A DNA stretch of 64,000 nucleotides from Methylophaga sp. (GCA_002706095.1 PAJP01000004.1:115062-179061); one strand, 5' to 3'. Positions 32,478 to 52,983 are shown, counted from the stretch's first letter. The notes: generated by a model not told the origin, from the letters alone. Numbers and translations: made by a program.

Positions 32478-34019
32478 ATGAGTGATATTGCTGCAACATC
32501 GCCAGAGCCAGCATATATCACTAAGCTGGCTTTACGTCATCTTCCTTTCTCTGAGGTAAAAGAGACGCAAGACTTTTTCGATGGCCGCTATATCAAGCAA
32601 CGACGTTTACTGATATTACATTTATTAAGATCTACTACTACTCCCATTCTGTTGCAGGCAGATTCAGGGGCAGGTAAGACAACGTTATTACAGCAACTAC
32701 AGCGTCAGGCACCGTCTGATATACGGTTTTACAGCTGGCAGAAAAATGTGTCAGCTGCTGAGCAGTATCAAAGCATGTTAAAAATATTAGCGACTGAAAC
32801 GGCTTCGACACGAGATGAAACAGCGCTAACGAATATTTTAAAAGAGCGGTTCGGTCATCTAAAAAAACTCAACATTACTCCTGTCTTACTGGTTGACGAT
32901 GTGCACTTGTTGACGGAGGTTGAGCAGCAAGTCTTACAAGTCTGTCTCAGCTGGCAAGATGAGCAGAAAGAGCCAGTCATGCAAGCTGTCATAGCAATGA
33001 CGGCAAAAACACCCTTTACGCTTATTTCCACGCAATGGATGGATTTACCGCCATTAGAGCTTATTGAAACAGAAGCGTATTTATTACACCGCTTGAAATA
33101 CGCTGGACTTCAGGGAGATAGCCCTTTCACCCAAAAAGAGATTCAATATTTAAGTAAGACATCAGCAGGGAATCTGGCAAAACTGAATGCCTTGGCGCAT
33201 CAGCAATTATTAGGCATCAAAGCCAAAAAGTGGCGTACCAGACCTTCTATCAGCCTTGGAAACGTCCATTGGCTAAGATGGGGTGGAGGACTTTCGCTGG
33301 CCATTGTTATTCTGCTTATCCTAAGTTTTCAGAATCAAATCAATGAATGGATTACAGCCTCTACCACAACTGAAAATCACCTCGATTTGCCGGAAGATAT
33401 TACAACCGAAGATGAGAAGCTGGCCACGGTTATTGTTGGGGATGAGCAAGAAAAAGCAGCAGAAATGCTCTCGGAACGTGAAAAGTTAGAAGCGCTACTT
33501 GCTGAAATTCCTCCTCCAGCGTCCCAGGAAAGTGAGGCTCCAAAGGCCATAGAGCCAGAACCACTCAGCGCACCTGTTCCTCAGCAACTTTCTGAGCCTG
33601 AAGAACAACCCCTCGCCGAGATATCAGTGGAAGAGCTGTCAGGGGAAAACACCAGTCAGCAATCACGTCAGGAAGCTACAGATAAAGCTGATGAGGATAT
33701 GCTGAGCGCTGTTCACCAAAGAGACTGGATTCTGTCTCGTCCAGAAAAAAGCTATACATTCCAATTAATGGGATCGTGGGAAGATAAAGAAGTCGATGAC
33801 TTTATCAAGGAGCATGGGCTGAAAGGCGATGTTGCCCGCTTCACCAGCTTACGCGAGAATAAACCATGGCATGTGCTTATTTATGGTGTTTATCCATCTA
33901 AGCAAGCAGCCCTAAAAGCCAGTAATCAGTGGTCTGGTGCCATGAATAATTTGCCAACCTGGTTACGTCGATTTGATAGTGTACAAAAACAAATCAAAGA
34001 AAAGGGCGTAGCACCCTAA
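32478..34019 (+). CDS. damX: DamX-like cell-division protein (AAA ATPase plus SPOR domain)
   Basis: 513 aa. Cytoplasmic AAA/ExeA-like ATPase domain (about 20-255; Walker A ADSGAGKTTLL, Walker B VLLVDDVHLL), one transmembrane helix (about 272-290), an acidic Pro/Glu-rich periplasmic linker and a C-terminal SPOR domain (about 435-505), which binds denuded septal glycan. Follows aroB by 7 nt as in E. coli. E. coli DamX keeps a shorter version of the N-terminal part. Overlaps the convergent decarboxylase gene by 26 bases. Confidence 0.9.
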   Translation: MSDIAATSPEPAYITKLALRHLPFSEVKETQDFFDGRYIKQRRLLILHLLRSTTTPILLQADSGAGKTTLLQQLQRQAPSDIRFYSWQKNVSAAEQYQSMLKILATETASTRDETALTNILKERFGHLKKLNITPVLLVDDVHLLTEVEQQVLQVCLSWQDEQKEPVMQAVIAMTAKTPFTLISTQWMDLPPLELIETEAYLLHRLKYAGLQGDSPFTQKEIQYLSKTSAGNLAKLNALAHQQLLGIKAKKWRTRPSISLGNVHWLRWGGGLSLAIVILLILSFQNQINEWITASTTTENHLDLPEDITTEDEKLATVIVGDEQEKAAEMLSEREKLEALLAEIPPPASQESEAPKAIEPEPLSAPVPQQLSEPEEQPLAEISVEELSGENTSQQSRQEATDKADEDMLSAVHQRDWILSRPEKSYTFQLMGSWEDKEVDDFIKEHGLKGDVARFTSLRENKPWHVLIYGVYPSKQAALKASNQWSGAMNNLPTWLRRFDSVQKQIKEKGVAP

Positions 34020-35142
34020 GAATATTGTCTGCGCTTGTATCGAGTCCTGCAAAAACGACACGATAATACAAGGTTTGATTTAATTTAATAGTAGAAATGG
34101 TGCCATTTTTAATTAATGATGTTAAATCATGATCCTGGTTGAGCTTGAAGCAGACAATACCTGTCCCATGATTGATCACTTTACACTTAGCTTGTTCAAG
34201 TGCTTCGGTAAAATGTGCTGCTTGTGCAAGACGATAAGCCATTTTTTCAATAAACCATGTTTTGCCCAGCAGCTTCCAGTTTAACCATAAGGGAAGAAAA
34301 ACCTCTCCTCCATAAGAACCACCAATGGTCATCTCGGGCGGCTCTGATAGGTAATCAATCGCACTCATCAATTCTGGGGCTTGATGGCTAAATAAAAGAC
34401 TGCATGGTCTAGGTTGGAATAATGCTTTATGGGGGTCGAAACTCAAGCTATCGACTTTCGATATGAGTTGTTTAAGCTCATTAGCCTGTAAAAGCATAAA
34501 GCCTCCCCAGGCGCCATCTACGTGTAACCATGAGTCATATTTAGTCGCAATTGCTGTTATCTCTTCGATGGGATCCACAGCCCCCGTGGCTGTGGTTCCC
34601 ATATTAGCAATAATGGCAAGTGGTGCAGTCTCTGCACATTTTTCTTCTAATGAGGCGAGGTGGATTTGTTGACGCCCGTTACATTCAATTACTTCAAAAG
34701 TGATACCGAGAATATCACAGGCTTTGGCTATGGAATAATGGCACGCTTCACTGCCATAAATCACGTTTTTATTAGTGTCTGACTGCTTTCTCGCCTGCCA
34801 TAAAGCCTGTAGATTTGAGAATGTTCCACCATGAGTAAATTGGGTGTAAGTAAATCCAAACTCTTCTGCCAGCGTGTAACGAAGTTCTGTTTCAGCTTGT
34901 TTGAGTTTGGGATAAAGCTCAGGAGATAACAGATTGCCATGATGGTGCAATGCCAACTGCATACCTAACTGACTGTATGGTGCCAGATCGGGTGTCATAT
35001 GAGCTGCCCAACATGCATTCTGGTAACGGCTGGCCTCTTCGACAAGATCCTGATAACTGATATCAGACGAAAGATTTTCCCGTGCATTATCTGCTTGTGC
35101 TGTCTGGCTTATTCCATCCTCAGCATCATAGTTATGTTTCAT
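33994..35142 (-). CDS. PLP-dependent group II decarboxylase, MfnA-like
   Basis: 382 aa. The PLP lysine lies in SFDPHKALFQPRPCS, and the cofactor-binding HVDGAWGGFML and THGGTFSNLQAL are conserved. The compact size matches archaeal MfnA (tyrosine decarboxylase giving tyramine for methanofuran; some homologues make beta-alanine from aspartate). It is last in a tight minus-strand run of methylofuran-type genes, which favours a tyrosine or related substrate. Other group II substrates cannot be excluded. Its tail overlaps damX. Confidence 0.78.
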   Translation of the reverse strand: MKHNYDAEDGISQTAQADNARENLSSDISYQDLVEEASRYQNACWAAHMTPDLAPYSQLGMQLALHHHGNLLSPELYPKLKQAETELRYTLAEEFGFTYTQFTHGGTFSNLQALWQARKQSDTNKNVIYGSEACHYSIAKACDILGITFEVIECNGRQQIHLASLEEKCAETAPLAIIANMGTTATGAVDPIEEITAIATKYDSWLHVDGAWGGFMLLQANELKQLISKVDSLSFDPHKALFQPRPCSLLFSHQAPELMSAIDYLSEPPEMTIGGSYGGEVFLPLWLNWKLLGKTWFIEKMAYRLAQAAHFTEALEQAKCKVINHGTGIVCFKLNQDHDLTSLIKNGTISTIKLNQTLYYRVVFAGLDTSADNILRVLRPFL

Positions 35143-35148
35143 GTTTGT

Positions 35149-35733
35149 TCATTGCAGTACAAGACCTTTGTCGGGAAACAAGGCTTGCTGTTGAAAGTGA
35201 AACAGGCGTGTCATAACGGGCTGTTGATGGAATAAGGGCAGAAAGCCACTGTCCAGGACGTTATGATTAATTAAAGATTTTATCTGACTAGAAATAACGG
35301 TACTGCGTTTAATGATGCTGAGCTCATCCGCCTTGAGTGACTGACTCAGCCACAAGGCCATGCTATCTGAAGTAATATTCCAGCTATGTTTTAACTCTGC
35401 TACAGACAATACTCTATGATCGGGAAGCCAGATATATAAACCATTTTTCAATAGCGTTGTCTGTTGCTCACCTGGGTAGTAGAAAGGGCGACAATTCGGT
35501 GCTAGATCTTTTATTAATAAACCAAATTGTGACATGGCTAAGATGGCCATATGATGTGCTGTCGCATCACTAAAGCGGTGTAAACGTTGAGCATGCCGAA
35601 CTTCATCAGCAAAAGGGCCACCGCCAGGTACGATAATCACGGTTTCGTATTCGCTGGCTCGACTTAATAATGTTAGCCATTGCTTAAGTTCTGGCGTATG
35701 AAAAAGACTACCACCCAGTTTAATAATTCGCAT
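35149..35733 (-). CDS. amino-acid-kinase-fold protein, MfnE-like
   Basis: 194 aa. N-terminal MRIIKLGGSLF, VIIVPGGGPFADEV and the later WNITSDSMALWLSQ show the aspartokinase/uridylate-kinase fold. MfnE phosphorylates aminomethylfuran-methyl phosphate in methanofuran synthesis, and the gene stands between pabB and the MfnA-like gene with gaps of 1 and 6 nt, so this role is inferred from fold plus context. Confidence 0.78.
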   Translation of the reverse strand: MRIIKLGGSLFHTPELKQWLTLLSRASEYETVIIVPGGGPFADEVRHAQRLHRFSDATAHHMAILAMSQFGLLIKDLAPNCRPFYYPGEQQTTLLKNGLYIWLPDHRVLSVAELKHSWNITSDSMALWLSQSLKADELSIIKRSTVISSQIKSLINHNVLDSGFLPLFHQQPVMTRLFHFQQQALFPDKGLVLQ

Positions 35734-35734
35734 G

Positions 35735-37120
35735 TTATTGTAAAAATTGAATTAGGTTAATCATTGCTGCTGCTTTATCGTGCACTTCCTGGTATTCCTC
35801 ATCTGCATCAGAGTCTGCCACAATTCCGCCTCCAGCCCAGAATCTTAGACGATTATCACTGAATACCATGGTGCGAATAGTAATGTTGGTATCCATATTA
35901 CCATCAAAACCAATATAGCCGATGCTTCCACAGTAGACACCGCGACGTTGGGGTTCAAGCTCTTCTATAATTTCCATTGCTCGTAGTTTTGGCGCGCCAG
36001 TTATAGAGCCGCCAGGGAAACATGCTCTGAGTAAAGTCACCGCTGACTCTGTCTTGGCCAAGGTACCTGTAATCGTGCTCACGAGGTGGTGGACAGTGGC
36101 AAAGCTCTCCAATGCAAAAGGGTGAGGGACCTGAATACTTCCCGGTTCACAAACCTTACCAATATCATTCCTTAGCAGGTCGACAATCATTAAGTTCTCG
36201 GCACGATCTTTTAGGCTGTTTTGAAGTGACTCAGCAAGCAATCGATCTTTTTCAGGATTATGGCGATCGCGAGGTCTTGTTCCCTTGATAGGTTTTGTTT
36301 CTACCTGTGTTCCCTCAACACGCAATAAGCGTTCTGGTGAAGAGCTTAAGACCGAGACGGTACCCGTATCAAAATAGGCTGAAAAGGGCGCTGAATTTTG
36401 TTTTCTTAAAGCCTGATATGCCAACCATGAATCACCTTCAGCATTAACTTCGAAGCGCTTTGCCAGATTAACCTGATAACAATCGCCCTCAGTAATGTAG
36501 TTTTTTATTTTTTTGAAAGCTGACTTATACGATGTCGTATCGAAGTTACTTTTTAATCGACTGGTGATATTGAATGTTCTTGCTTGCTTGTCAGCTAAGG
36601 AGTTCAAGGTTTTGAGCAAGTCTGACCATCTATCCTCTGTATGAGGATCAAGACCATGACTAACCAGCCAGCTACGTTTCAACTTGTGATCAACGACGAC
36701 TGCCCAGTCATAAATGCCCACTGCCATGTCTGGAATCTGTTCAGCATCTTCAGCCACTGCTGGTAGTGTCTCCAGATAGCGACCTAAATCATAAGCAAAG
36801 TAGCCAATCGCACCACCGGTAAAAGGTAATGATGTTGTGTCTTGTTTGTAGCGCTGTAAAAGATCATTGAGCAGTAGAAAGGGGTCGGATGTCACCGTTT
36901 TTTTATTCTGACTCTCTGAGATCACTGTTGTGCCATCAGTCGTTTCTAATGTCATAAATGGGGCAGCAGCCAGAATGTCAAAGCGGCCAATATCGGGTGA
37001 AGTATTGGCACTATCCAGCATCACTGGCCAAGGAAAGTGACGGATACGGCAAAAAAGCTCAGCGCTATCTTCAAGATAAGGGAGTTCAGTGGTTAAACGT
37101 GGGTATTCAGAGTTCATCAT
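35735..37120 (-). CDS. pabB: aminodeoxychorismate synthase component I (PabB)
   Basis: 461 aa chorismate-binding enzyme that makes 4-amino-4-deoxychorismate for p-aminobenzoate. The nucleophile-bearing PIKGTRPR (Lys, as in PabB; TrpE has PIAGT) and FPGGSITGAPKLRAMEIIEELE, CGSIGYIGF, IRTMVF and AGGGIVADSD are all present. pABA feeds both folate and the arylamine part of H4MPT, which fits its place inside the cofactor run. Two adjacent ATGs (37120, 37117) are possible starts. Confidence 0.92.
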   Translation of the reverse strand: MMNSEYPRLTTELPYLEDSAELFCRIRHFPWPVMLDSANTSPDIGRFDILAAAPFMTLETTDGTTVISESQNKKTVTSDPFLLLNDLLQRYKQDTTSLPFTGGAIGYFAYDLGRYLETLPAVAEDAEQIPDMAVGIYDWAVVVDHKLKRSWLVSHGLDPHTEDRWSDLLKTLNSLADKQARTFNITSRLKSNFDTTSYKSAFKKIKNYITEGDCYQVNLAKRFEVNAEGDSWLAYQALRKQNSAPFSAYFDTGTVSVLSSSPERLLRVEGTQVETKPIKGTRPRDRHNPEKDRLLAESLQNSLKDRAENLMIVDLLRNDIGKVCEPGSIQVPHPFALESFATVHHLVSTITGTLAKTESAVTLLRACFPGGSITGAPKLRAMEIIEELEPQRRGVYCGSIGYIGFDGNMDTNITIRTMVFSDNRLRFWAGGGIVADSDADEEYQEVHDKAAAMINLIQFLQ

Positions 37121-37126
37121 GTTATT

Positions 37127-38173
37127 TTACGATAACTGCTGTGCAGCAAGAAGCGCTAATGCCGTAGCGGGAGCATAGGATGCAGCATCAGGATGATGCT
37201 GACAGAAGGCAGCGTAATCCACATAAGGGCGATTGAGTCGTGATGCGCATTTCTCGACGATGAATTGACCAATTCCGGCACCTATAATCGGACTTGATGG
37301 TTGCCAATCAGGAAATTGACTTAATACTTGATAGCAGCCATTAAGGATCTGTTGCATTTGCTTCTCAGCAAAATAAGCGGCTACATTTTGCCATTGTGCG
37401 TCGGTGGCATCACGGGCGTCAGAGCCCAACATTCTGGCTAACCGTTGTTGGCTATGCGTTTGAGTCCATGGCTGGCCATCAGTACTACTATCTTGAATAT
37501 CGCTCTCATTGAGTTGATTCAATATCAGCCAGATATCAGCACTACTGGCAAACCATTCTGCAGCCAGGGAAACCCGATTGCCGTGTAATGGGGCAGCATC
37601 ACTTATCGCCATTAACGGTGTTCGTATCGCACCGGTATAAACCAGCTCGCCCGAGCATTGTCGTCCATAATCGGTTGTGGCTGTTGCCGAAACTTGGTGA
37701 CGATCAATCCCAATGATATCGCAGGTCGTGCTGCCGATATCAATGAATACCGCCTGTTCAATATGTTGAGCAGCAAGCAATGCACTTGCTTGCCAGTTCA
37801 TTGAAGCAATATTCTGCCATTGCTCAATCGCTTGATTTTTTGTTAGCCAAGTTGCCTGACCAGCAAAGAAACGCACGTCACTGTTATTGAGGTGAGCGTC
37901 AATAGTTTCGACAATCGCTTTCACTCCTTCTTGGCGATCAGGGAAGGCATCTACGAGTTCTCCTGTCATGGTAATGTAATGACCAGCCGTAGCTTTGGGT
38001 AATAGAGCAAGGGCAGATCTGATGCTTTCATTCAGGGCATCAATGCCTTTCCATAAGGCGCAGGGGAGTTGAAAGACATGTAGTAAATTTCCCGTTGCAT
38101 CAGCATAAGCCACTTTAAGGTGTGCGCCACCAATATCCCAGCCGCAAAATGCCATATTAGTTTGTGTTGTCAT
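37127..38173 (-). CDS. hydantoinase/oxoprolinase-like protein, MfnF-like (H4MPT-linked C1 pathway)
   Basis: 348 aa. Actin-like ATPase motifs CGWDIGGAHLKVAYAD at the N-terminus and FIDIGSTTCDIIGID in the middle, with IIGAGIGQFI near the C-terminus, identify the family known from H4MPT-using methylotrophs and methanogens. In archaea MfnF joins the furan amine to glutamyl-tyramine. It overlaps the ATP-grasp gene by 17 bases upstream and is 6 nt from pabB, so it belongs to one operon. The role here is inferred. Confidence 0.82.
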   Translation of the reverse strand: MTTQTNMAFCGWDIGGAHLKVAYADATGNLLHVFQLPCALWKGIDALNESIRSALALLPKATAGHYITMTGELVDAFPDRQEGVKAIVETIDAHLNNSDVRFFAGQATWLTKNQAIEQWQNIASMNWQASALLAAQHIEQAVFIDIGSTTCDIIGIDRHQVSATATTDYGRQCSGELVYTGAIRTPLMAISDAAPLHGNRVSLAAEWFASSADIWLILNQLNESDIQDSSTDGQPWTQTHSQQRLARMLGSDARDATDAQWQNVAAYFAEKQMQQILNGCYQVLSQFPDWQPSSPIIGAGIGQFIVEKCASRLNRPYVDYAAFCQHHPDAASYAPATALALLAAQQLS

Positions 38174-39122
38174 GGTTGAGTGCTTGTATATGTGTATTCA
38201 ATAATCTTGCAGGATTTGTTTGGCTTCGCATGGCTGGTTCTGCATAGGTTGTGGTCAGTCGCGGATTGACTTCTACTACATAAATGACGTTGTCAGTTTT
38301 GATAAGATCAACACCAACGAAGCCCCATAGCCCTGGGATTGCCATACGAATCTGTTCAGCGATTTCTTGTGCTTTCTCAATGGATAGCATATCAAATCGT
38401 TGGGCTTCAAATGCCTCTAAGTGCAGCTGTTGCTGATGTTTTTTTACATGCTGAATATTGACGGATAGTAAGTGAGACTTTTCACCTGTCATAAACAGAC
38501 TCAAGCTTAGGCTGTCACCGTAAATATATGGCTGAACAATAAACCGGTCTTTGTTTAAGGTTAAAAGCTGATGTCTGGCATCAATACTGTTGAATAAATA
38601 CGTGTCCTCACAGCCGGCACCATCTATGGGTTTTAAGACCCACTGATGGTGATCATGATGATCTTTGCAAAGCCATTCATCGGCTGTGAAGGTGACAGAT
38701 GTCTTTATCTGATAAGCTTTAAATTGCTGATAAGTTCGGTATTTATCAGTACATAAAAGAATAGCCTCAGTACGGCAGTTGAGGATGGTTTTGGATTGTT
38801 GTTCGAGACTTTGTATTAAATCAAACAATATTAAATCCGTTTCGGGCGCGATAATGAGAAACAGGTCATAGCGTTGCTGGCATTGTAACCAAGTCTGATT
38901 GAATTGCTTCTTAGTTTGGATAGGGTAGGTGGTTATACGTTCTGTTGAGAAGGGTAAAGCAGGAAGTCGCTCATCTCGCATAATGGCGATGTGATGACCA
39001 TATGCCTGTAAATCCTGACAAATGCTTGCCAGCATTAATTCACCTTCGTGCATCAAACCAGCGGAAAAAACCGTTTCTGATAACGCGCCACTGGTAAGAT
39101 GTTCGTATATAAAAATTGTCAT
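38157..39122 (-). CDS. ATP-grasp ligase, MfnD-like
   Basis: 321 aa. N-terminal MTIFIYEHLTSGAL, ATP-grasp core with WVLKPIDGAGCEDTYLF, FIVQPYIYGDSLSLSLF and metal-binding VGVDLI...VVEVNPRLTTTYAE. MfnD (tyramine-glutamate ligase) is the closest functional match given the MfnF-, MfnE- and MfnA-like neighbours. First gene of the minus-strand run, with its start only 22 nt from the divergent HisA-like gene. Confidence 0.8.
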   Translation of the reverse strand: MTIFIYEHLTSGALSETVFSAGLMHEGELMLASICQDLQAYGHHIAIMRDERLPALPFSTERITTYPIQTKKQFNQTWLQCQQRYDLFLIIAPETDLILFDLIQSLEQQSKTILNCRTEAILLCTDKYRTYQQFKAYQIKTSVTFTADEWLCKDHHDHHQWVLKPIDGAGCEDTYLFNSIDARHQLLTLNKDRFIVQPYIYGDSLSLSLFMTGEKSHLLSVNIQHVKKHQQQLHLEAFEAQRFDMLSIEKAQEIAEQIRMAIPGLWGFVGVDLIKTDNVIYVVEVNPRLTTTYAEPAMRSQTNPARLLNTHIQALNHDNTN

Positions 39123-39144: not shown

Positions 39145-39858
39145 ATGAATATTATACCTGTCATTGATATTCGTGATGGTATTGTTGTGCATGCACGGGG
39201 TGGCGAAAGAGCAAACTATCAGCCACTAAAGTCATTATTAACTCAGTCTGTGAAGCTAGAACAAGTCATTGATGATTTACTCGCGTGGTACCCGTTCAAA
39301 CAGCTTTACATTGCCGATCTCGATGCGATTGAGCAAAAACAACATACGCCTCAACAATATCAACATTTAATCGACACATTTCCACAACTGAGCCTCTGGC
39401 TTGATGCTGGTATTACTGAGATGAGTGCGTATTCATATTATCCGATGTCGCCACAATTACGTCTTGTCCTTGGAAGTGAAACGCTGACAGATCTGCAATT
39501 GTTAAAAGCGCCGCATGTCAGACAACAGTCAATTTTGTCTCTGGACAAGAAGTCTGGATCCATTTTGGGCAGTGAAGAAATAGCAAAAGAGCCAGCTTAT
39601 TGGACACAAACATGTATAGCCATGAGCTTAGATAATGTAGGTACAGATAAAGGACCAGACTTTGACTGGCTCAAATCATTAATGAAAGAGCAAGAATGCG
39701 TGAAATGGTATGCTGCGGGTGGAGTACGTGATGAAGCTGATTTAAGTCAGTTAGCACAAATAGGTGCCACAGGGGTATTAGTAGCCAGTGCATTGCACAC
39801 TGGTAAATTAGGTCGCTCGACTATAGAACGATTAAGCAGGGACATCACTCTTCCGTAG
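39145..39858 (+). CDS. HisA/HisF-like TIM-barrel protein of the H4MPT cluster
   Basis: 237 aa. N-terminal IIPVIDIRDG and C-terminal AAGGVRDEADLSQLAQIGATG with LVASALHTGKL are the phosphate-binding and catalytic ends of the HisA fold. Both general acid/base Asp positions seem present (IDIRDG; ILSLDKKSG). The rest diverges from histidine-pathway HisA, and there are no other his genes around. Related genes occur in one-carbon clusters of methylotrophs; the substrate is unknown. An Amadori-type or aldose isomerase step on a phosphorylated sugar is one possibility. Confidence 0.8.
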   Translation: MNIIPVIDIRDGIVVHARGGERANYQPLKSLLTQSVKLEQVIDDLLAWYPFKQLYIADLDAIEQKQHTPQQYQHLIDTFPQLSLWLDAGITEMSAYSYYPMSPQLRLVLGSETLTDLQLLKAPHVRQQSILSLDKKSGSILGSEEIAKEPAYWTQTCIAMSLDNVGTDKGPDFDWLKSLMKEQECVKWYAAGGVRDEADLSQLAQIGATGVLVASALHTGKLGRSTIERLSRDITLP

Positions 39859-39884: not shown

Positions 39885-40445
39885 TTACTTAGCACCAAAT
39901 GGGTGTTCGCTAGATTTGTATTGTGCAACAACGTCAGCCGCTTTTGGCTCACGAGCAACAGCACGTTTGATAGCTTCTTTAGTAGCGCGATAGTTCCAAT
40001 CTTGGATTTTTTCATCGCTATCAGCAGTTGGAGAAATGAATACGCCAACGCAGATAAAGCAATCATCAGCTTCACCAGCTGGGATAGTGCCATCTTCAAC
40101 ACATTCAGCAACAGCAAGTGAAACACCACGCTGTGCTGGGCCGAACATTTGAACGGCTTGTTTCATGTTTTTGATGGTGACTTTGTTGAACATTACAGTT
40201 GCAGGCTTAACCATTAAGTTAGGCGCAACAACAGCCAACAAGCCATTAACCCCTTGTTTCTGGTCGGTGAGAGTACGGCAGAAGGCATCTTCTGCTGCAG
40301 AACCACGTGGACCCATGATTAAGTCAATGTGTGCAACGTTGTCTAAGTCACCATCTTCGATGACCAATGATTCACCTACAAGTACGCGATCGATAACTGG
40401 CATGTTATATTTTCCTGTTCCAAAAAAATTGTCAAAAAGGCTCAT
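39885..40445 (-). CDS. fae: formaldehyde-activating enzyme Fae
   Basis: Condenses formaldehyde with H4MPT to methylene-H4MPT, the entry of the one-carbon oxidation route in the cytoplasm. 186 aa. The catalytic His lies in [14 protein letters not shown] (His39), with [15 protein letters not shown] and [15 protein letters not shown] following. Start 40445 is backed by a very strong GGAGGG 6 nt upstream, giving about 14 more N-terminal residues than Methylobacterium Fae. An internal ATG at 40403 ([11 protein letters not shown]), matching the shorter family N-terminus, has AGGA 9 nt upstream. Confidence 0.95.
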
Positions 40446-40506: not shown

Positions 40507-41397
40507 TCAGTGCCGTCCGCTAAATGCTTCGTGGTACTGAAATTCATTAAAAGAAAGCAATTGCTTAAATTTATAAAGCAACAAGGTGGCTGCAATAAGA
40601 TCAGCCGATGTCCCTGGATTAATTGCTTTCTCTTTTAATTCTTTATCCCAGTGAGTGAGTGCATCAAAATGGGTCTCTACAGTACCCGTTTCTTCTATTT
40701 GGATCACAAACTGTTTTGCTCTCTCACTGACTTTGGTTGCCAGCGCAGTGGATTGCTTACGGGATATCAAGCTATCCAACGCCTTCGATAACAACTTAAG
40801 ATACGCGAAAGCCGTTGCCCATTCAACACTTTCCCCAGAATTTATCGCTTTTGTCAATGATGGCAAACTCAGATCCCATAGCGTGTTGAAATTATTGATA
40901 TATTGCTGTGCAATTTGATCACGATTTTTTGCTAAATCCATCGCTTCAAGCAAGGTAATGGTTGGTACTGCGCTGATATCCTGTTGGTCTTGTTTACCTA
41001 GTCCACCCGCTTCAGCTAAACGAATGGCTTGGTAGCAATCGATGGCATCATCTACAGTCAGATTATTGAGTACGACTTGAAGACGTTCTGGAAGTTCGTC
41101 AAAGGTTTCACACGACTGAACAGCCTGACACAGTGGTGCAAACAGTAAAACAATACCTAAGTTGGTATTGCAGTTGACAACACGTCGGGTTGCCTGAATC
41201 GATTGCAAAATACGTTCACCTACGGTCAAATCAGGTTTTGCCATAACCGGGGCGATAGCGTGAGCACTTTTAATAAAATCTTCCACCACCATATTATGCC
41301 CATCACTGATGACATTAACATTACCGGGTTTGGGGGCAGAGACCTCTTGCTCACAGGCCCAGAATACAGCGTCTTTTAAATCTGACTCAGAGAGCAT
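40507..41397 (-). CDS. CitG-like triphosphoribosyl-dephospho-CoA synthase family protein (H4MPT cluster)
   Basis: 296 aa from ATG 41397. Family motifs include APKPGNVNVISDGHNM at the N-terminus, NCNTNLGIVLLFAPL and AEAGGLGKQDQQDISA. True CitG transfers a phosphoribosyl group from ATP to dephospho-CoA; no citrate lyase genes are near. Its place between the MptN-like ligase and fae marks it as the CitG-like member of methylotroph H4MPT clusters, with unproven function. A TTG at 41418 is an alternative start. Overlaps the upstream gene by 11 bases. Confidence 0.83.
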   Translation of the reverse strand: MLSESDLKDAVFWACEQEVSAPKPGNVNVISDGHNMVVEDFIKSAHAIAPVMAKPDLTVGERILQSIQATRRVVNCNTNLGIVLLFAPLCQAVQSCETFDELPERLQVVLNNLTVDDAIDCYQAIRLAEAGGLGKQDQQDISAVPTITLLEAMDLAKNRDQIAQQYINNFNTLWDLSLPSLTKAINSGESVEWATAFAYLKLLSKALDSLISRKQSTALATKVSERAKQFVIQIEETGTVETHFDALTHWDKELKEKAINPGTSADLIAATLLLYKFKQLLSFNEFQYHEAFSGRH

Positions 41398-42301
41398 GGG
41401 TCGCTTGTTTTTGTTCAATACGTTTGACTAATGCTTTAGCCAGGTGCATAGCCACATCCGTTCCGGTAGCTTGATAGAGTCCTTTCCAAGCTGGAACACT
41501 GTTCACTTCTAACACGGTAAAGTGTCCATTTTTATCCCTGATCAGATCGACACCGGCATAGTCTGCATTCACTGCTGCCGTCGCTTTGACAGCTAATTGC
41601 CTCATCTCTTCGGTGACCGTGGTAGCAAAACAGCTGGCTCCTTGAGCAAAATTGGTTATCCATTTATTGGCGCGTCGGCTCATGGCGGCGCAGACTTCAT
41701 TATCAATGACCAATAGACGCCAATCCTGCCAGATACCTTCAAGTTCTGGTGCAATATATTCCTGCAGATAATAAGCACCACCAACAGGAGGAAGTTGTTC
41801 GAATTGCGATAATTCTTCGATTAAGGTGATACCTTTACCTTGGCAGCCGAATAACGGTTTCATCACGATTTTATTACCCATATTCAATTCTCGGGTAATG
41901 ATCTGTTTGGCCATATTGCTGTCTTCGCATGCCCAGGTTCTTGGCGTGCTCAATCCAGCCTGATTCAGGCGTAATGATGTTCTGGCTTTATCTACCGTGT
42001 ATTCGATAGCCGTTGCTGGGTTAAAAACAGGAATTCTCAATTCAGCTAAGGTATGCAGGACATCCATGCGAAGGGTGATTTGTTCGAGAAAACCTGGCGC
42101 AATACCTCGAACCATTGCGGCGGCGGGTAATTCATTCTCAAAGCCGGGAATAAACAAACCGGTCGGGGAGTCTAGATCGATTCGACATGCCGCTAAGTCT
42201 GTTAACACTGCTTCGATACCAAACTGGCTCAGTGAATGTGTTAATTGTTCACTGTGCCAGCCGTGGGTATCGTTAAAAATAACAAGGCGGTTTGACGCCA
42301 T
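41387..42301 (-). CDS. RimK/MptN-like ATP-grasp ligase (H4MPT cluster)
   Basis: 304 aa. ATP-grasp motifs IVMKPLFGCQGKGITLIEE, YYLQEYIAP, DWRLLVIDNEVCAAMSRRA and AGVDLIRD...VLEVNSVPAWKGL match RimK-type glutamate ligases. MptN adds alpha-glutamate to the tetrahydromethanopterin tail in archaea, and this gene follows mch by 6 nt, so a cofactor-tailoring role is likely. Which cofactor, H4MPT or methylofuran with its glutamate tail, cannot be decided from sequence. Confidence 0.83.
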   Translation of the reverse strand: MASNRLVIFNDTHGWHSEQLTHSLSQFGIEAVLTDLAACRIDLDSPTGLFIPGFENELPAAAMVRGIAPGFLEQITLRMDVLHTLAELRIPVFNPATAIEYTVDKARTSLRLNQAGLSTPRTWACEDSNMAKQIITRELNMGNKIVMKPLFGCQGKGITLIEELSQFEQLPPVGGAYYLQEYIAPELEGIWQDWRLLVIDNEVCAAMSRRANKWITNFAQGASCFATTVTEEMRQLAVKATAAVNADYAGVDLIRDKNGHFTVLEVNSVPAWKGLYQATGTDVAMHLAKALVKRIEQKQATHAL

Positions 42302-42307
42302 AGTGAT

Positions 42308-43291
42308 TTAAAGTCCGAAAGAAAGATTGAGTAATTCCTGATTCAGCTCACCAGCAGTGAAGCTTTTACCTGTTTTTGTGCTAGTCACAATCACTTTACC
42401 TGGACTGAACAACATGCCATCAATTTTGAAAAAGTCATATTCATAAGATTTAAAGATGTCGGCAAAGGGACGGCCATAGTCTGATGAAGTATTACTAGGC
42501 ATTTTTTCAGCCAGATCTTTCGCTTCTTCATCTGTAGCATCAACAAATAAATGTACTTGGCCACCAAATAAAATTGCATCATTAGTGCGGCCCATGGCAG
42601 TCATAAAGTCACCACCTGGAGGCGCGACTGGCGTTGAGCCATAACCATCAACAATTTTTTCTAACGGGAAATGCAGTTCGTGTGCTTTATGCATGGCGAC
42701 TTCCAGGACACGGATAGCAATTTGCATCACACCAGCCAGACTCGAGGTAGGCGTCAAGATGAACGTGAGGTTTTCAGGCTTAATACCACAGTTATTGGCC
42801 ACTTTTTCAGCCACTTCTACTGGCGGGAAACTATCCACTTCCAGAACAATGACGGTTGATTCAGCTTCGTCTTTGTAACCAAACTCTTTGAAAATTTCTT
42901 CTCTAGCTGCCAGCGCACGACCGGGGCCAGAGCCTAAAGCAAAGAACTTACTGTCTTCGCTTTTATGAGATAAGCTCCATCCGGCATATTGACTGCCGAG
43001 GCAACTTAAAACGGGGGTCTTAGCATGGACATTAACTGACCATGGCCAGTTGGCAAAGCCACTGTTGGTACCCATGGTGGCCGTACCCAGCCCACCCATA
43101 CAAATTTCACCAATAAGACGTCCGGCTTCCAGCCCGCCGTTACAGTTAATGCCAGCATCAACCACCCGAGTGCCATTGCTTAAGGTGCTGATTTCAAGTT
43201 GTAATGCTTCAGCATTATCAATTAAGGCATCCACTAATGGTTGGCAGGCAGCGTTTACACTGGTCCATTTGGCTGAAATGTCTGTGCTCAT
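42308..43291 (-). CDS. mch: methenyl-H4MPT cyclohydrolase Mch
   Basis: Converts methenyl-H4MPT to formyl-H4MPT in formaldehyde oxidation. 327 aa, the usual size for the family. Motifs include [23 protein letters not shown], split here as [13 protein letters not shown] and [11 protein letters not shown], then [38 protein letters not shown] and [10 protein letters not shown]. Start ATG 43291 with AGGA 7 nt upstream. First gene of the mch-ligase-CitG-like-fae run. Confidence 0.95.
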
Positions 43292-47112: not shown

Positions 47113-50100
47113 CTACTGTGTGGTTTCCTGAAAACTGACTTTACCCAGCAATTTCTGCATCTGCCAGATGAGTTCTTCTTCTTGGTAAGGTTTGCCCAAA
47201 TAGGCATTCACACCGATTTCCAGGGCTCTTTCACGATGTTTATTCCCTGTTCTTGAGGTGATCATGATAATTGGAAGATGCCTGAATTCTTGGTCATTAC
47301 GTACAATCGAGGCGAACTCAAAGCCATCCATGCGAGGCATTTCAACGTCTAACAGAATAATGTCGGGCTTCTGCTCATGTAATTGCGATAGCGCATCAAC
47401 GCCATCACGAGCTGTCATGACTTCGAAGCCGATACGACGTAAAAGATTGCCTGTCGCTTTGCGCATGGTAATAGAGTCATCGACGACCATCGCGGTTGGC
47501 AGTCTGTCTTGTAACTGTTCGAGTTCACGTTCGAGGTTAATCGCATCGTCAGTATCCAGAGAAATATTCTGGCTACTATCCATCAGTGTGGGTATATCCA
47601 ATATAAAGACCACCCGACCATCCCCAAGAATGGTGGCGCCGTTGATGGCTGTAATATGACCAAGTTGTGTACCGACAGATTTAATGACAATTTCGCGGTT
47701 GCTGACAATATCATCCACTAACAAGGCAATGCGTAAGTCACCAGAGCGGAACAGAAGCAGCGGCATTTGATGTTTCAGATTATCAGACAATGATAGTGGT
47801 TTATCGAGCAATGAACTCAGCGGCATAAACCGGTATTTTTCACCCTGAAAATCATAATGCGGTTTATGTGTGCCCAACATTAATTTGATGTCACGAACGC
47901 TGATACGTTCACCTGCCGTGATGGTATTTAAAGGCAGGGCGTACTGTTCATCCTGAATGCGAATTAATAAGGCCTGGATGACAGACAAGGTTAATGGCAG
48001 ACGAATTGTAAATGTACTACCTTTGCCTCGTTCAGATTTGATACTAAGACGGCCTTTCATACCGCGGATTTCATTGCTGACAACATCCATGCCAACACCT
48101 CGGCCAGCAAGCTGAGAGACATTGTCTGCGGTACTAAAGCCTGAGCTCAAAATCAGCTGAATCAGCTCATCTTCTGATGGCATATCATGATGGTTGATAA
48201 GGTTCATGGATAAGGCTTTTTCTCGCACCTTATCGATATTGATTCCTTGCCCATCATCACTGATATTGATGACAATTTCTGAACCTTCACGTGTGATAAC
48301 TAATGACAGCAAACCGTTAGCTGCTTTACCGTGGTTGAGCCGATCTTCGCTATCTTCAATTCCATGCGCAATCGCATTACGAAGAATATGCTCCAATGGG
48401 GCGACAAGGCGGTCAAGAATCGTTCTATCGATATCGAGTTCAGAGCCTCGAATTTTTAACTCGACTTTTTTACCTAACTCAGATGCTGTTTGTCTGACGA
48501 TGCGTTCAAGTCGACCAACAATGCCACTGAAAGGTAGCAAACGGGTGGTCATCAGACCTTGCTGTAAGTCGGTATTAAGCCGTGACTGCTGCAACAGAAT
48601 TGCATCAGTTTCCCTGACCAAGGTATCCATCGAGTGACTGATGTCATGTAAATCAATGACGCTTTCAGTTAGCCCTCGAGATAACTGCTGAATCATGGAA
48701 AAACGATCCAACTCTAATGGATCAAAATCCGATTCATTCTTGAGTCGTTCATCTTCATAACGGAACAAAATCTGAGTTTCCGTTTCAATTTCCAAATTAC
48801 GCAGCTGATCATGTAAACGAGCAACCGTCTCTTCCATTTCGTGAAGTTGCTGACGCAGTGCTATATGTTGTTGCGTCACCCGATCACGCGAAATACTGAC
48901 TTCGCCGGCAAAGTTTGTCAGATAATCCAGAAGATCAGCACGAACTCTGACTTGCTCGACATGTTGAGGCGCTGGTGGGGTATCAGTTTGAATCGGGCTG
49001 ACTGGTAATATATCGGACGCGGTATCGATATCTCTTTCTGCTTGTCTAACTTTTTCTGGTGCAGGTAGCGGTCTGTCTTCAATATGTAAATCCTGGCCTT
49101 CCGTGCGTGTGGATATCTCGGCAATCAAAGATAATGCCGTTTTCACCGGCTGGTGATTGGCTAATTGTTCCTGCATTTCCGCCAGCTTATCCTGACAGCG
49201 TTGCAGTAAATCAAAGAAATCCTCATCGGCTTCTTGTAAGCCATCGCTGACGGCCAACACTAATGTTTCGATTTGATGCGTCAAATCGGCCATAGGTGAA
49301 ATACCCGTCAGCCTTGCGCCTCCTTTTAGCGTGTGTAAGTCACGCTGGAGCTGCAATATATCTTGTTCAGTATGAGTATGGCTCACCCAGGCTTTGATGA
49401 TTTGACTGCTTGAGTCGAGTAGCTCTTGTGCTTCTGCGGCAAAGGCTGACAGCAAGTCATCATCCATATCTGCAGGTATGGCGTAGTCTGTTTCATCCAA
49501 GCCCATATCCTGCTGATGACGTGTTTTTTGAGCTAGGTAGTTATCAACCCGAGCAGAAAAATCGGCAGAGGTGGAAAGCGGCTTATTCTGTAATAAGCTT
49601 TCAATAAACTGGTTTAACTGCTCATACCCCTGTTCCAGTAAGGCATTTAAACCAATATCTTGAGGATGGCATTGATTAATGAGCTTGTTCAGGCTGGCAT
49701 ACGTGTTAGCAATGAGGGTTTGTTGTGCATCGGATGCCGTTTGCTCTAACTGCCGCAAGGTTGAACTAATGGCAAGCAGATTGTCCTGATCCGTGGGCAC
49801 CAATTGCCACTGTTTTAATTGCTTGGTGTAATCTTCAAGGAGTTCATCCGTTTCTTCCAGCAAGATCATCAGAAATTCAGGATCAATGACTGGTGCCAGT
49901 GCCGTTTCTCCAGACGGTGTCAGTTCAGAAATATAGGATGATAATGTGATCAGGTCAGGCTGTTCGCTCTGATTCATCACGTGTTCAAGCAGTTTGTCTA
50001 GGCCATCAACCACCTCATGCATCAACGTCATCTGATGATTATCAAGCACAGTATCGTTCATATGGAGTTGCTTAACAGCTTGATCCATTTCTGTGGCAAT

Positions 50101-52983
50101 CATCGCCATGGTTTTTATGCCGGCAATATTGGCACAGCCTTTTAATGAGTGAACCGAGCGTAAAACTGGCGAAGTGATTTGTCTGGAAAAAGCGATATCG
50201 TTGAGGCTTTGCTTCAGTGTTGAAATATGTTGTTGTGCTTCTGCCACAAAGATATTGAGCAACTCATTATGCTCTTCTTCTGCAATTTCATCCGCTTCCT
50301 GTTCAGATAATGTTTTTGCTTTGATGTATTGATCGACAGATGTGTTGTCTTGAGCACGTTGAATCAGGTAACGGTCAACAGAGCTTATGGGGGACAGTAT
50401 TTCTTCTACAGGAATACTTGTGCGGAATGCCTCAATTTCTTTTAAACGATCCTGCTGGGCAATATAGCGTGCGACACTCGTTTGTTGAGGTTCAGTAGTG
50501 GTTGTTTCATGCTCTGTATGCAAACGCTGTATGTAGCTTTCAACGCTGGTCATAAGTGGACTTTGCTGCTTCTCTAGCCCCCACTTCATACGAATATATC
50601 GTTCGACGCCCGTAGGCAGAATGGGATCTATTTCAAAAACAGGTTTGTCCGGGAAATATTGCGCATCTTGCTGTGCCTGATACGTTGCTAAATCGATATC
50701 TAACCTTGCTGCATCACGTGCTTGACGAATTTGGATATAACGTTCAACAGAGGTGCGTTGGTCCTGCTGTCTTTGCGCTTTTACTTCTTTGAGTAAGGGA
50801 TTTAAGCACCTTTCTTTTAGTTCATACAACGCATCGATGTTATCTGGCGAACTGGTATCTGCTTGAGTGAAACGTGACAGTAGCTCTGGTAAGAGTTGAT
50901 AACTGTCTTGTACTAATTTTTTGACAAGATCATTATCGTCTCGGCTGCCCTCAATGACGTGATTCAACACATCTTCAACAGCCCAGCAAAGATCGGCAAT
51001 GACCTGAGCCTCTGCCATACGCCCGCTACCTTTAAGCGTATGGAAGTGACGCCTTGTTTCATTTAATGCTGCCTGATCCTGCTGTTGAATCCAGGCAGGA
51101 ATGTGGTGCGCTAGTTCCTGTAACACTTCTGTGGCTTCTTCAATGAAGATAGCAGCTACTTCAGCATCAATACCCTCAGCAAAATGCCAGTCTGCGTCAG
51201 CGCCTGAATCTGTGCCGGCAATGTTGGGTTGGTCAGTTGATACCTCGACTGGGGATGAATGAACGGTATCATCGATAAAGTCATATGGCTCAATACGCTT
51301 ATCCTCAACGGATAGCGCAGGTTCGGCGGAAGTCTCTGTGTCAATTATGACGTCTTCATCAGTCGCTGTTTCATATTCATTATCGAACTGCAGCAGTTTG
51401 GTTTTAGCTGTTGCCAGATAATCGTCATCAGCCTGTCCGTGATGACGCACGCCCTCCATGTATAATTCGCAGCAAGCAATGATATCAGCCAAACGTTGCA
51501 GCTTAATCGCCGAGAAGGTTTTCTCCCCTGCGTGATAATCAGATAGTGTCTCCGATGTCATTTTCACGATCTCGGCCGCAGCAGCCTGGTCCAGCATATC
51601 AAGACTGCCTGCAATCAAACTTAACTGTTGTTCTGTTTCTCCTAAGCCATCAACATAGCGTTCTGATCGCTCCATTAATGTTAGTGTTTCTTTGATATTA
51701 CTCAGCTCTAGCAAACATTCGGTCATGACTGTTTGGCGCAACTGGTCACTGACGTTTGCCTGTGTCGTAGATGCCAGTAGGGCTTCTGCCTGTAATAAGC
51801 TATCGGCAAGTTGCGTTAAGTCATCTTCACTGGGAATATCACCGCGACTGCTTATCGCATTGAGTTGCTCTACCTGATGATGTAATAGATTGCTGGCTTC
51901 ATACTCTGCAAGTAAAGCCAGTGTGTCTGACATGCTTTGTAATTGTTTTGATGTCGACTCAATCACATCAATATCAACATCGCCATCATGAACGTGTTGA
52001 TTTAACTGTTCTTTTATATCCTGAAGTTGCTCAAGCAAAGCAAGGTGAGCATCACCCAGCGCATTGTCACTCATTCCATAGATACGGGAACGTTGATCAA
52101 AGAAATACAGTTTTAACGTCGCTTTTAGTAAGGTGACATGTGGGCCACGGCTGGTCGCTTTGGCAATGGCTAATAACAGCTGTTTTTCCAAGTCTGCAGG
52201 AAAATCCAATTGTAGGGCGGCTTCACCGGCTTCGCTATGTTGCTTAATTGGTTGAACCAATTTACCCATTAGGGGTTTTATTTGCCCGGCAGACGTCAGT
52301 CCTTGGTGTTCAATAGCTTCAATGAAAGCTTCGGCTGTCCACCAGAACAGGCAGACTTTTTCTTGGTGGCTGGATAAGCGAAGAAAATGCACGATGGCAT
52401 ACATTTGCCTTAGGCTGTCATTATCTTGCTGACGTAACCATTGCAGTAGCAAGACTTGGAAAACATGTCCCAACTTACGTTGTTCAATATTCAATGCTGG
52501 AAGTTTTCGGGCTGGATTGGGTGCAATGCTGTCTGGTAGAGCAATGGAAAGCGTTGGATTAAACAGCTCGATTTCAGTTCTGGTATCTGCTTTGCAGACT
52601 TTTCTCAGCTCGTTAATGATATCCAGCAGGGACAGTGGGTGATCCAGAAAGTCGTTATTCAGCAGTTTGATGTAGTTCGGTAATAGTAATAACGATTTTA
52701 CAATGGCATCCTGCGCCGCTGAGGTATCTGTTACCTGATTATTTTGAAGGGCTCTGACGGCTTTTTGTGTTTCTTCAGTCAGCATTGACGCACCGGACAT
52801 ATTAATCATATCCAGTGTCCCTTTCACCTGATAAAGAGACTCGATAGTATCGGTAAGAAGCTTCTCTTCAGCCTGGCCATCGAGAAAATTATTCATGGCC
52901 GCTAAGGCATGAGCAAGAGACTGCTGCAATTCATCTTGCAGCCAGACTAATGCATCGTAATTGCCTTTGATGAGTTGTGCCAT
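47113..52983 (-). CDS. chpA: ChpA-type hybrid CheA histidine kinase of the Pil-Chp system
   Basis: 1956 aa multidomain kinase controlling type IV pilus activity. In order: an N-terminal degenerate Hpt-like/FimL-like region (YQVKGTLDM, His absent, about 50), long helical region, Hpt with HFHTLKGSGRM (about 646), six TSVxxYI repeats (744-887), Hpt VHSLKGCAN (about 944), Hpt LHTLKGGAR (about 1216), dimerisation, HATPase (HILRNAIAHG about 1536; GRGVGMDVV about 1629), CheW (about 1665-1810) and receiver VVDDS...LLDVEMPRMDG (about 1831-1950). Pseudomonas ChpA is longer with more phospho-acceptor domains. Start ATG 52983 with GGAG 11 nt upstream. Confidence 0.94.
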   Translation of the reverse strand: MAQLIKGNYDALVWLQDELQQSLAHALAAMNNFLDGQAEEKLLTDTIESLYQVKGTLDMINMSGASMLTEETQKAVRALQNNQVTDTSAAQDAIVKSLLLLPNYIKLLNNDFLDHPLSLLDIINELRKVCKADTRTEIELFNPTLSIALPDSIAPNPARKLPALNIEQRKLGHVFQVLLLQWLRQQDNDSLRQMYAIVHFLRLSSHQEKVCLFWWTAEAFIEAIEHQGLTSAGQIKPLMGKLVQPIKQHSEAGEAALQLDFPADLEKQLLLAIAKATSRGPHVTLLKATLKLYFFDQRSRIYGMSDNALGDAHLALLEQLQDIKEQLNQHVHDGDVDIDVIESTSKQLQSMSDTLALLAEYEASNLLHHQVEQLNAISSRGDIPSEDDLTQLADSLLQAEALLASTTQANVSDQLRQTVMTECLLELSNIKETLTLMERSERYVDGLGETEQQLSLIAGSLDMLDQAAAAEIVKMTSETLSDYHAGEKTFSAIKLQRLADIIACCELYMEGVRHHGQADDDYLATAKTKLLQFDNEYETATDEDVIIDTETSAEPALSVEDKRIEPYDFIDDTVHSSPVEVSTDQPNIAGTDSGADADWHFAEGIDAEVAAIFIEEATEVLQELAHHIPAWIQQQDQAALNETRRHFHTLKGSGRMAEAQVIADLCWAVEDVLNHVIEGSRDDNDLVKKLVQDSYQLLPELLSRFTQADTSSPDNIDALYELKERCLNPLLKEVKAQRQQDQRTSVERYIQIRQARDAARLDIDLATYQAQQDAQYFPDKPVFEIDPILPTGVERYIRMKWGLEKQQSPLMTSVESYIQRLHTEHETTTTEPQQTSVARYIAQQDRLKEIEAFRTSIPVEEILSPISSVDRYLIQRAQDNTSVDQYIKAKTLSEQEADEIAEEEHNELLNIFVAEAQQHISTLKQSLNDIAFSRQITSPVLRSVHSLKGCANIAGIKTMAMIATEMDQAVKQLHMNDTVLDNHQMTLMHEVVDGLDKLLEHVMNQSEQPDLITLSSYISELTPSGETALAPVIDPEFLMILLEETDELLEDYTKQLKQWQLVPTDQDNLLAISSTLRQLEQTASDAQQTLIANTYASLNKLINQCHPQDIGLNALLEQGYEQLNQFIESLLQNKPLSTSADFSARVDNYLAQKTRHQQDMGLDETDYAIPADMDDDLLSAFAAEAQELLDSSSQIIKAWVSHTHTEQDILQLQRDLHTLKGGARLTGISPMADLTHQIETLVLAVSDGLQEADEDFFDLLQRCQDKLAEMQEQLANHQPVKTALSLIAEISTRTEGQDLHIEDRPLPAPEKVRQAERDIDTASDILPVSPIQTDTPPAPQHVEQVRVRADLLDYLTNFAGEVSISRDRVTQQHIALRQQLHEMEETVARLHDQLRNLEIETETQILFRYEDERLKNESDFDPLELDRFSMIQQLSRGLTESVIDLHDISHSMDTLVRETDAILLQQSRLNTDLQQGLMTTRLLPFSGIVGRLERIVRQTASELGKKVELKIRGSELDIDRTILDRLVAPLEHILRNAIAHGIEDSEDRLNHGKAANGLLSLVITREGSEIVINISDDGQGINIDKVREKALSMNLINHHDMPSEDELIQLILSSGFSTADNVSQLAGRGVGMDVVSNEIRGMKGRLSIKSERGKGSTFTIRLPLTLSVIQALLIRIQDEQYALPLNTITAGERISVRDIKLMLGTHKPHYDFQGEKYRFMPLSSLLDKPLSLSDNLKHQMPLLLFRSGDLRIALLVDDIVSNREIVIKSVGTQLGHITAINGATILGDGRVVFILDIPTLMDSSQNISLDTDDAINLERELEQLQDRLPTAMVVDDSITMRKATGNLLRRIGFEVMTARDGVDALSQLHEQKPDIILLDVEMPRMDGFEFASIVRNDQEFRHLPIIMITSRTGNKHRERALEIGVNAYLGKPYQEEELIWQMQKLLGKVSFQETTQ
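50323..50754 (-). repeat. six short TSVxxYI repeats in ChpA
   Basis: Peptide repeats at residues about 744, 791, 812, 835, 867 and 881: TSVERYI, TGVERYI, TSVESYI, TSVARYI, SSVDRYL, TSVDQYI (nt 50734-50754, 50593-50613, 50530-50550, 50461-50481, 50365-50385, 50323-50343). Spacing is 14-47 residues. A weaker copy, ARVDNYL, lies near residue 1143. They sit in the linker between the first two His-bearing Hpt domains. Confidence 0.85.

Follow-up and report, generated by a model that had tools for sequence, protein, structure and literature searches.

The window, a stretch of 64,000 nucleotides, lies on contig 4 of a Methylophagaceae genome of 3.57 Mb. Five open reading frames, all on the minus strand, occupy positions 33994-39122 (Table 1). 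The mfnD-like and mfnF-like frames overlap by 17 bases, and the remaining gaps within the five-gene run are 1 – 6 bases. The last gene of the run, coding for a group II decarboxylase, overlaps at its 3' end a convergent damX-like gene by 26 bases. Together with mch, myfB, orf7, fae and the divergent orf17 directly upstream, the run forms a larger C1 cluster. The original prediction had described a tight minus-strand run of mfnD-, mfnF- and mfnE-like genes, a decarboxylase and pabB; open reading frames and family searches confirmed this arrangement down to the exact coordinates.

Table 1. Features of the window, with the family matches on which their assignment is based
Feature	Position	Strand	Family match
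PLP-dependent decarboxylase of group II (382 aa), last in the run	33994-35142	-	PF00282
mfnE-like kinase (Orf21)	35149-35733	-	NF040622 6.5e-24, 85 bits; AA_kinase
pabB, aminodeoxychorismate synthase component I	35735-37120	-	TIGR00553 389 bits (cut-off 328)
mfnF-like (Orf9), condensing enzyme of the MYFR core	37127-38173	-	TIGR03123 317 bits (cut-off 244); NF040623 152 bits
mfnD-like ATP-grasp ligase, candidate tyramine/tyrosine:glutamate ligase	38157-39122	-	NF040722 2.5e-33, 116 bits; PF02655
orf17 (HisA/HisF-like), divergent	39145-39858	+	TIGR00734, PF00977
fae, formaldehyde-activating enzyme	39885-40445	-	TIGR03126, over cut-off
orf7 (CitG-like)	40507-41418	-	PF01874 3.5e-71
myfB (orf5), RimK/MptN-like glutamate ligase (function per PMC8141765)	41387-42301	-	NF040720 206 bits
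mch, methenyl-H4MPT cyclohydrolase	42308-43291	-	TIGR03120, over cut-off
ORF of 1956 aa in ChpA/PilL hybrid-kinase style	47113-52983		repeated Hpt-like, CheA-like and receiver regions (by eye)

With mfnD, mfnF, mfnE, myfB and orf17 next to tetrahydromethanopterin (H4MPT) genes, the locus is a methylofuran (MYFR) biosynthesis cluster; mfnB and fhcD are found in the same genome. The MfnE-, MfnD- and 'MfnA'-like proteins score well under the archaeal equivalog cut-offs, yet are clearly homologous (85, 116 and 112 bits, respectively). As p-aminobenzoate is a precursor of tetrahydromethanopterin, pabB fits the C1 cluster, and its role here is presumably the supply of p-aminobenzoate for H4MPT. The orf17 gene is required for MYFR in M. 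extorquens (PMC8141765). The second cluster, which holds mfnB away from the window cluster (L168:9742-13097, G000:C14), contains, as read by eye, genes for a DUF447-like protein, a pterin-binding-like protein of 514 aa and a flavoprotein-like protein.

The decarboxylase matches PF00282 with 104.6 bits (gathering score 27; 6e-30) and Aminotran_5 with 38 bits (1e-9). The PLP lysine K239, H135, D209 and the C-terminal carboxylate-binding R361 are invariant in 46 sequences. Y264 of the catalytic loop, likewise invariant, aligns with Y333 of Sphaerobacter 4rit, a position for which the PDB has the mutants Y333N and Y333Q. The AlphaFold2 model of the protein (pLDDT 85, pTM 0.84) is disordered only at the N-terminus and in loop 259-275, and the low model confidence of this loop around Y264 would be as expected for a mobile loop. 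The top Foldseek matches of the model are all group II decarboxylases. The best of them is a tryptophan decarboxylase, although the model also aligns with many others, and MfnA ranks 34th; TM-scores are similar throughout, so the fold does not name the substrate. By family, fold and catalytic residues the gene codes for a group II, fold type I PLP decarboxylase.

The same data bear on whether the protein could instead be the bacterial MfnC, the transaminase that gives the furan moiety its aminomethyl group. MfnC should depend on PLP, which the weak Aminotran_5 match would suit, and it has no assigned gene in bacteria (PMC8141765). The PF00282 score is, however, far above that of Aminotran_5, the protein does not qualify as an aminotransferase, and the catalytic-loop tyrosine is conserved. 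Moreover, the gene is absent from the MYFR operon of one Methylophagaceae genome (G010, see below) and from 39 MYFR neighbourhoods examined in other Gammaproteobacteria, which need MfnC too. A transaminase is therefore highly improbable.

The original prediction called the enzyme MfnA-like, a term that holds at the level of the superfamily but not as the label MfnA. Against TIGR03812, the MfnA equivalog, the protein scores 112 bits (cut-off 299), and this cut-off was exceeded in none of 397 Pseudomonadota genomes. A profile of the Methylophagaceae decarboxylases scores 180 bits with 8zpi, 166 with 4rit, 152 with 4obu, 119 with HDC and 100 with MfnA. Models of DABA-DC, HDC, MfnA and PanP match all 30 family members about equally; with PanP (TIGR03799) the protein of the window reaches 95 bits (cut-off 606). 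Judged by sequence, the enzyme is not MfnA and is no closer to MfnA than to HDC, DABA-DC or PanP. It is about equally far from enzymes acting on tyrosine, histidine, diaminobutyrate and aspartate, so homology gives no substrate. Bacterial TIGR03812-like matches of 216 – 262 bits were considered as MfnA and rejected, since they are nearer sphingosine-phosphate lyase. The PF00282 proteins of Pseudomonadota are diverse (L152-L163, L171-L177), and the best TIGR03812 scorers among them are nearer that lyase than MfnA.

Comparison with known enzymes gives the same picture. MfnA of Methanocaldococcus jannaschii (3F9T, 6JY1; TIGR03812) is likewise a group II PLP enzyme of similar length with a link to furan-coenzyme synthesis, and its catalytic Lys, His, Asp, loop Tyr and C-terminal Arg align, but the pairwise score is 36.6 bits, identity in the structure alignment is about 20%, and the Arg at the loop end is not kept in the Methylophagaceae. 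The best profile and fold matches, 8ZPI, 4RIT (Sphaerobacter) and 4OBU (R. gnavus TrpDC), differ by an identity of only about 24% in the structure alignment and a length greater by about 100 residues; we know of no C1-coenzyme link for any of the three. PanP, bacterial histidine and plant serine decarboxylases (HDC and SDC also of similar length) have similar profile scores and differing known substrates. Residue 277, at the loop end, is Y, F, H or N in nearly all Methylophagaceae members and Arg in most of the group II decarboxylases compared (GTR in MfnA, GSR in HDC, LGRR in AADC), and its replacement implies that the pocket or the loop anchoring is altered. Other residues, such as an LYP motif, are also specific to the family. 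Profile scores and residues together suggest that the enzyme is probably a branch of the superfamily separate from MfnA and recruited independently.

Relatives of the decarboxylase were found by a profile scan of genome contigs, in which a single-sequence scan had given no match. Among the named loci of the profile scan, the closest decarboxylases outside the genome itself are those of M. aminisulfidivorans and M. sulfidovorans (69% identity). The gene directly follows mfnE in 45/45 named Methylophagaceae loci, and the complete run mfnD-mfnF-pabB-mfnE-decarboxylase is present in all 41 of those not cut by a contig end; a convergent damX is nearly always next. The same order in 45 loci excludes a chance arrangement. 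Among 35 Methylophagaceae genomes the decarboxylase was detected in 32 and mfnF in 33. A reduced genome of 1.1 Mb, reported as 100% complete (G023), lacks the decarboxylase, mfnF, mfnB and fhcD and has kept panD. In G004 a contig ends inside pabB, and in G018 the decarboxylase is on a contig cut inside pabB. In G010 the run mfnD-mfnF-pabB-mfnE is present without the decarboxylase or damX, and a convergent aroB lies 138 bases from mfnE (L169, G010:C75), so the decarboxylase is not indispensable. No PF00282 match was found in G010; this genome is only 68% complete, and the absence is stated for the locus, not for the whole genome. In the genome of the window, no second PF00282 gene was found.

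The absence at the G010 locus would fit a neutral or decaying passenger gene without a part in MYFR synthesis. This is extremely improbable, as the gene is intact in all 45 loci with invariant catalytic residues, its dN/dS of about 0.12 – 0.21 in close pairs indicates purifying selection, and its divergence between species is similar to that of mfnD, mfnF and orf17. Across the Methylophagaceae the decarboxylase is a member of the MYFR operon and no accidental neighbour, which bears out the methylofuran-type context first proposed for it.

Outside the family the operon looks different at its end. The mfnF gene was found in 45 of 370 Gammaproteobacteria searched. The proteobacterial cluster mch-myfB-orf7-fae-orf17-mfnD-mfnF-pabB-mfnE is shared, with its gene order largely kept, by many other Gammaproteobacteria, but in the Methylophagaceae the extra decarboxylase follows mfnE. 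In the 39 non-Methylophagaceae neighbourhoods the operon is mostly the same and generally ends with mfnE, which this decarboxylase follows in none. The one related gene in these neighbourhoods, 8.5 kb from mfnF (G265), codes for a distant homologue of 528 residues, and 27/41 mfnF-bearing Gammaproteobacteria genomes outside the family have no PF00282 match at all. The decarboxylase is therefore an addition to the standard operon, so far confined to the Methylophagaceae. A different decarboxylase was sought by eye 3' of mfnE and between orf17 and fae in other Gammaproteobacteria, and none was seen; the genes read there were a ribonucleotide reductase, a chemotaxis protein, an SrkA-like kinase, a PTPS-domain protein and spurious antisense frames.

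Two further observations were made in these genomes. Between orf17 and fae, several other lineages carry a protein of about 410 – 430 aa with, by eye, a 6-pyruvoyl-tetrahydropterin-synthase-like stretch (L137:12039-13259; L110, L118, L122, L126, L131, L136), possibly for a pterin step of H4MPT synthesis. In addition, large-genome MYFR-bearing Gammaproteobacteria (L145-L150; G151, G124, G204, G118, G408, G240) have homologues of plant-type tyrosine/aromatic amino-acid decarboxylases, with more than 450 bits to 6eei or 3rbf. These are located away from the MYFR cluster and are possible tyramine sources for a tyramine-type MYFR.

PLP decarboxylases require a free alpha-amino group, so the enzyme should act on tyrosine before ligation by MfnD. 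It is likely that this operon-end, non-MfnA decarboxylase makes tyramine from L-tyrosine for a tyramine-type methylofuran, with substrate, product and coenzyme type predicted from gene content and sequence. In the proposed route, free L-tyrosine would be decarboxylated to tyramine, which the MfnD-like ligase would join to glutamate; MfnF would attach the furan moiety, and MyfA/MyfB would add further glutamates. The resulting methylofuran would be of the tyramine type, like archaeal methanofuran and the methylofuran of six bacteria (PMC8141765).

Methylofuran is a formaldehyde-handling coenzyme. According to Hemmann et al. 2021 (PMC8141765), M. extorquens, M. radiotolerans and M. album have its tyrosine-type form, in agreement with what the original prediction says of M. 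extorquens. The same study showed the tyramine type by LC-MS in six proteobacterial strains. BLAST with MfnA gave homologues in three of these, Methylobacillus flagellatus (Mfla_2033), Starkeya novella (Snov_0063) and Variovorax paradoxus (VAPA_RS28950), and the remaining three were suggested to use tyrosine decarboxylases of another kind (PMC8141765). Like the Methylophagaceae, these three producers have both a PF00282 decarboxylase and the proteobacterial MYFR pathway; in contrast to the Methylophaga gene, Mfla_2033 adjoins the mxa cluster, outside the MYFR operon (PMC8141765). Methylophaga was not among the organisms of that study, and no paper was found that joins Methylophaga with tyramine MYFR.

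An aspartate, glutamate or diaminobutyrate decarboxylase that is merely located in the operon, and supplies beta-alanine, GABA or a diamine, would also agree with the near-equal matches to the PanP, DABA-DC, HDC and MfnA profiles, and the PDB entries for the MfnA structures of M. jannaschii carry the label tyrosine/aspartate decarboxylase. PanD is present in 24/24 Methylophagaceae genomes tested, however, which makes a role in beta-alanine supply unnecessary, and the linkage of the decarboxylase to MYFR genes is strict across the family. In G023 the decarboxylase was lost together with mfnF, mfnB and fhcD, but PanD stays. Such an enzyme is thus very unlikely, and aspartate, named as an alternative substrate in the original prediction, is not supported.

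Alternatively, the substrate could be an unusual amino acid or an aromatic one other than tyrosine, and the result a third type of methylofuran with an undescribed core amine. The lost Arg at the loop end would then reflect a changed substrate, and the LYP motif and the top structural match to tryptophan decarboxylase, many other alignments notwithstanding, would point the same way. The chemistry of MfnF, however, needs a phenol-type acceptor. Every known methylofuran or methanofuran carries tyrosine or tyramine (PMC8141765), and a new core amine is very unlikely.

Tyramine from tyrosine remains the best prediction for the Methylophagaceae. The general idea of a tyramine-type methylofuran in bacteria, the main idea of the original prediction, is not new, as it was published for six proteobacteria in 2021 (PMC8141765). 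The new part is a specific, non-MfnA, operon-fixed enzyme together with the tyramine-type prediction for this family, that is, a new enzyme variant and not a new pathway. The enzyme is a candidate of the non-MfnA tyrosine decarboxylase kind predicted in PMC8141765; as it is found only in the Methylophagaceae, it does not explain the three MfnA-less tyramine-type strains of that study. Its fixation in the MYFR operon throughout a family of marine methylotrophs provides a concrete gene and a mass-spectrometric prediction for named strains, such as M. aminisulfidivorans, M. thiooxydans and M. lonarensis. If the prediction is true, the tyramine supply for methylofuran would have been recruited more than once from group II decarboxylases.
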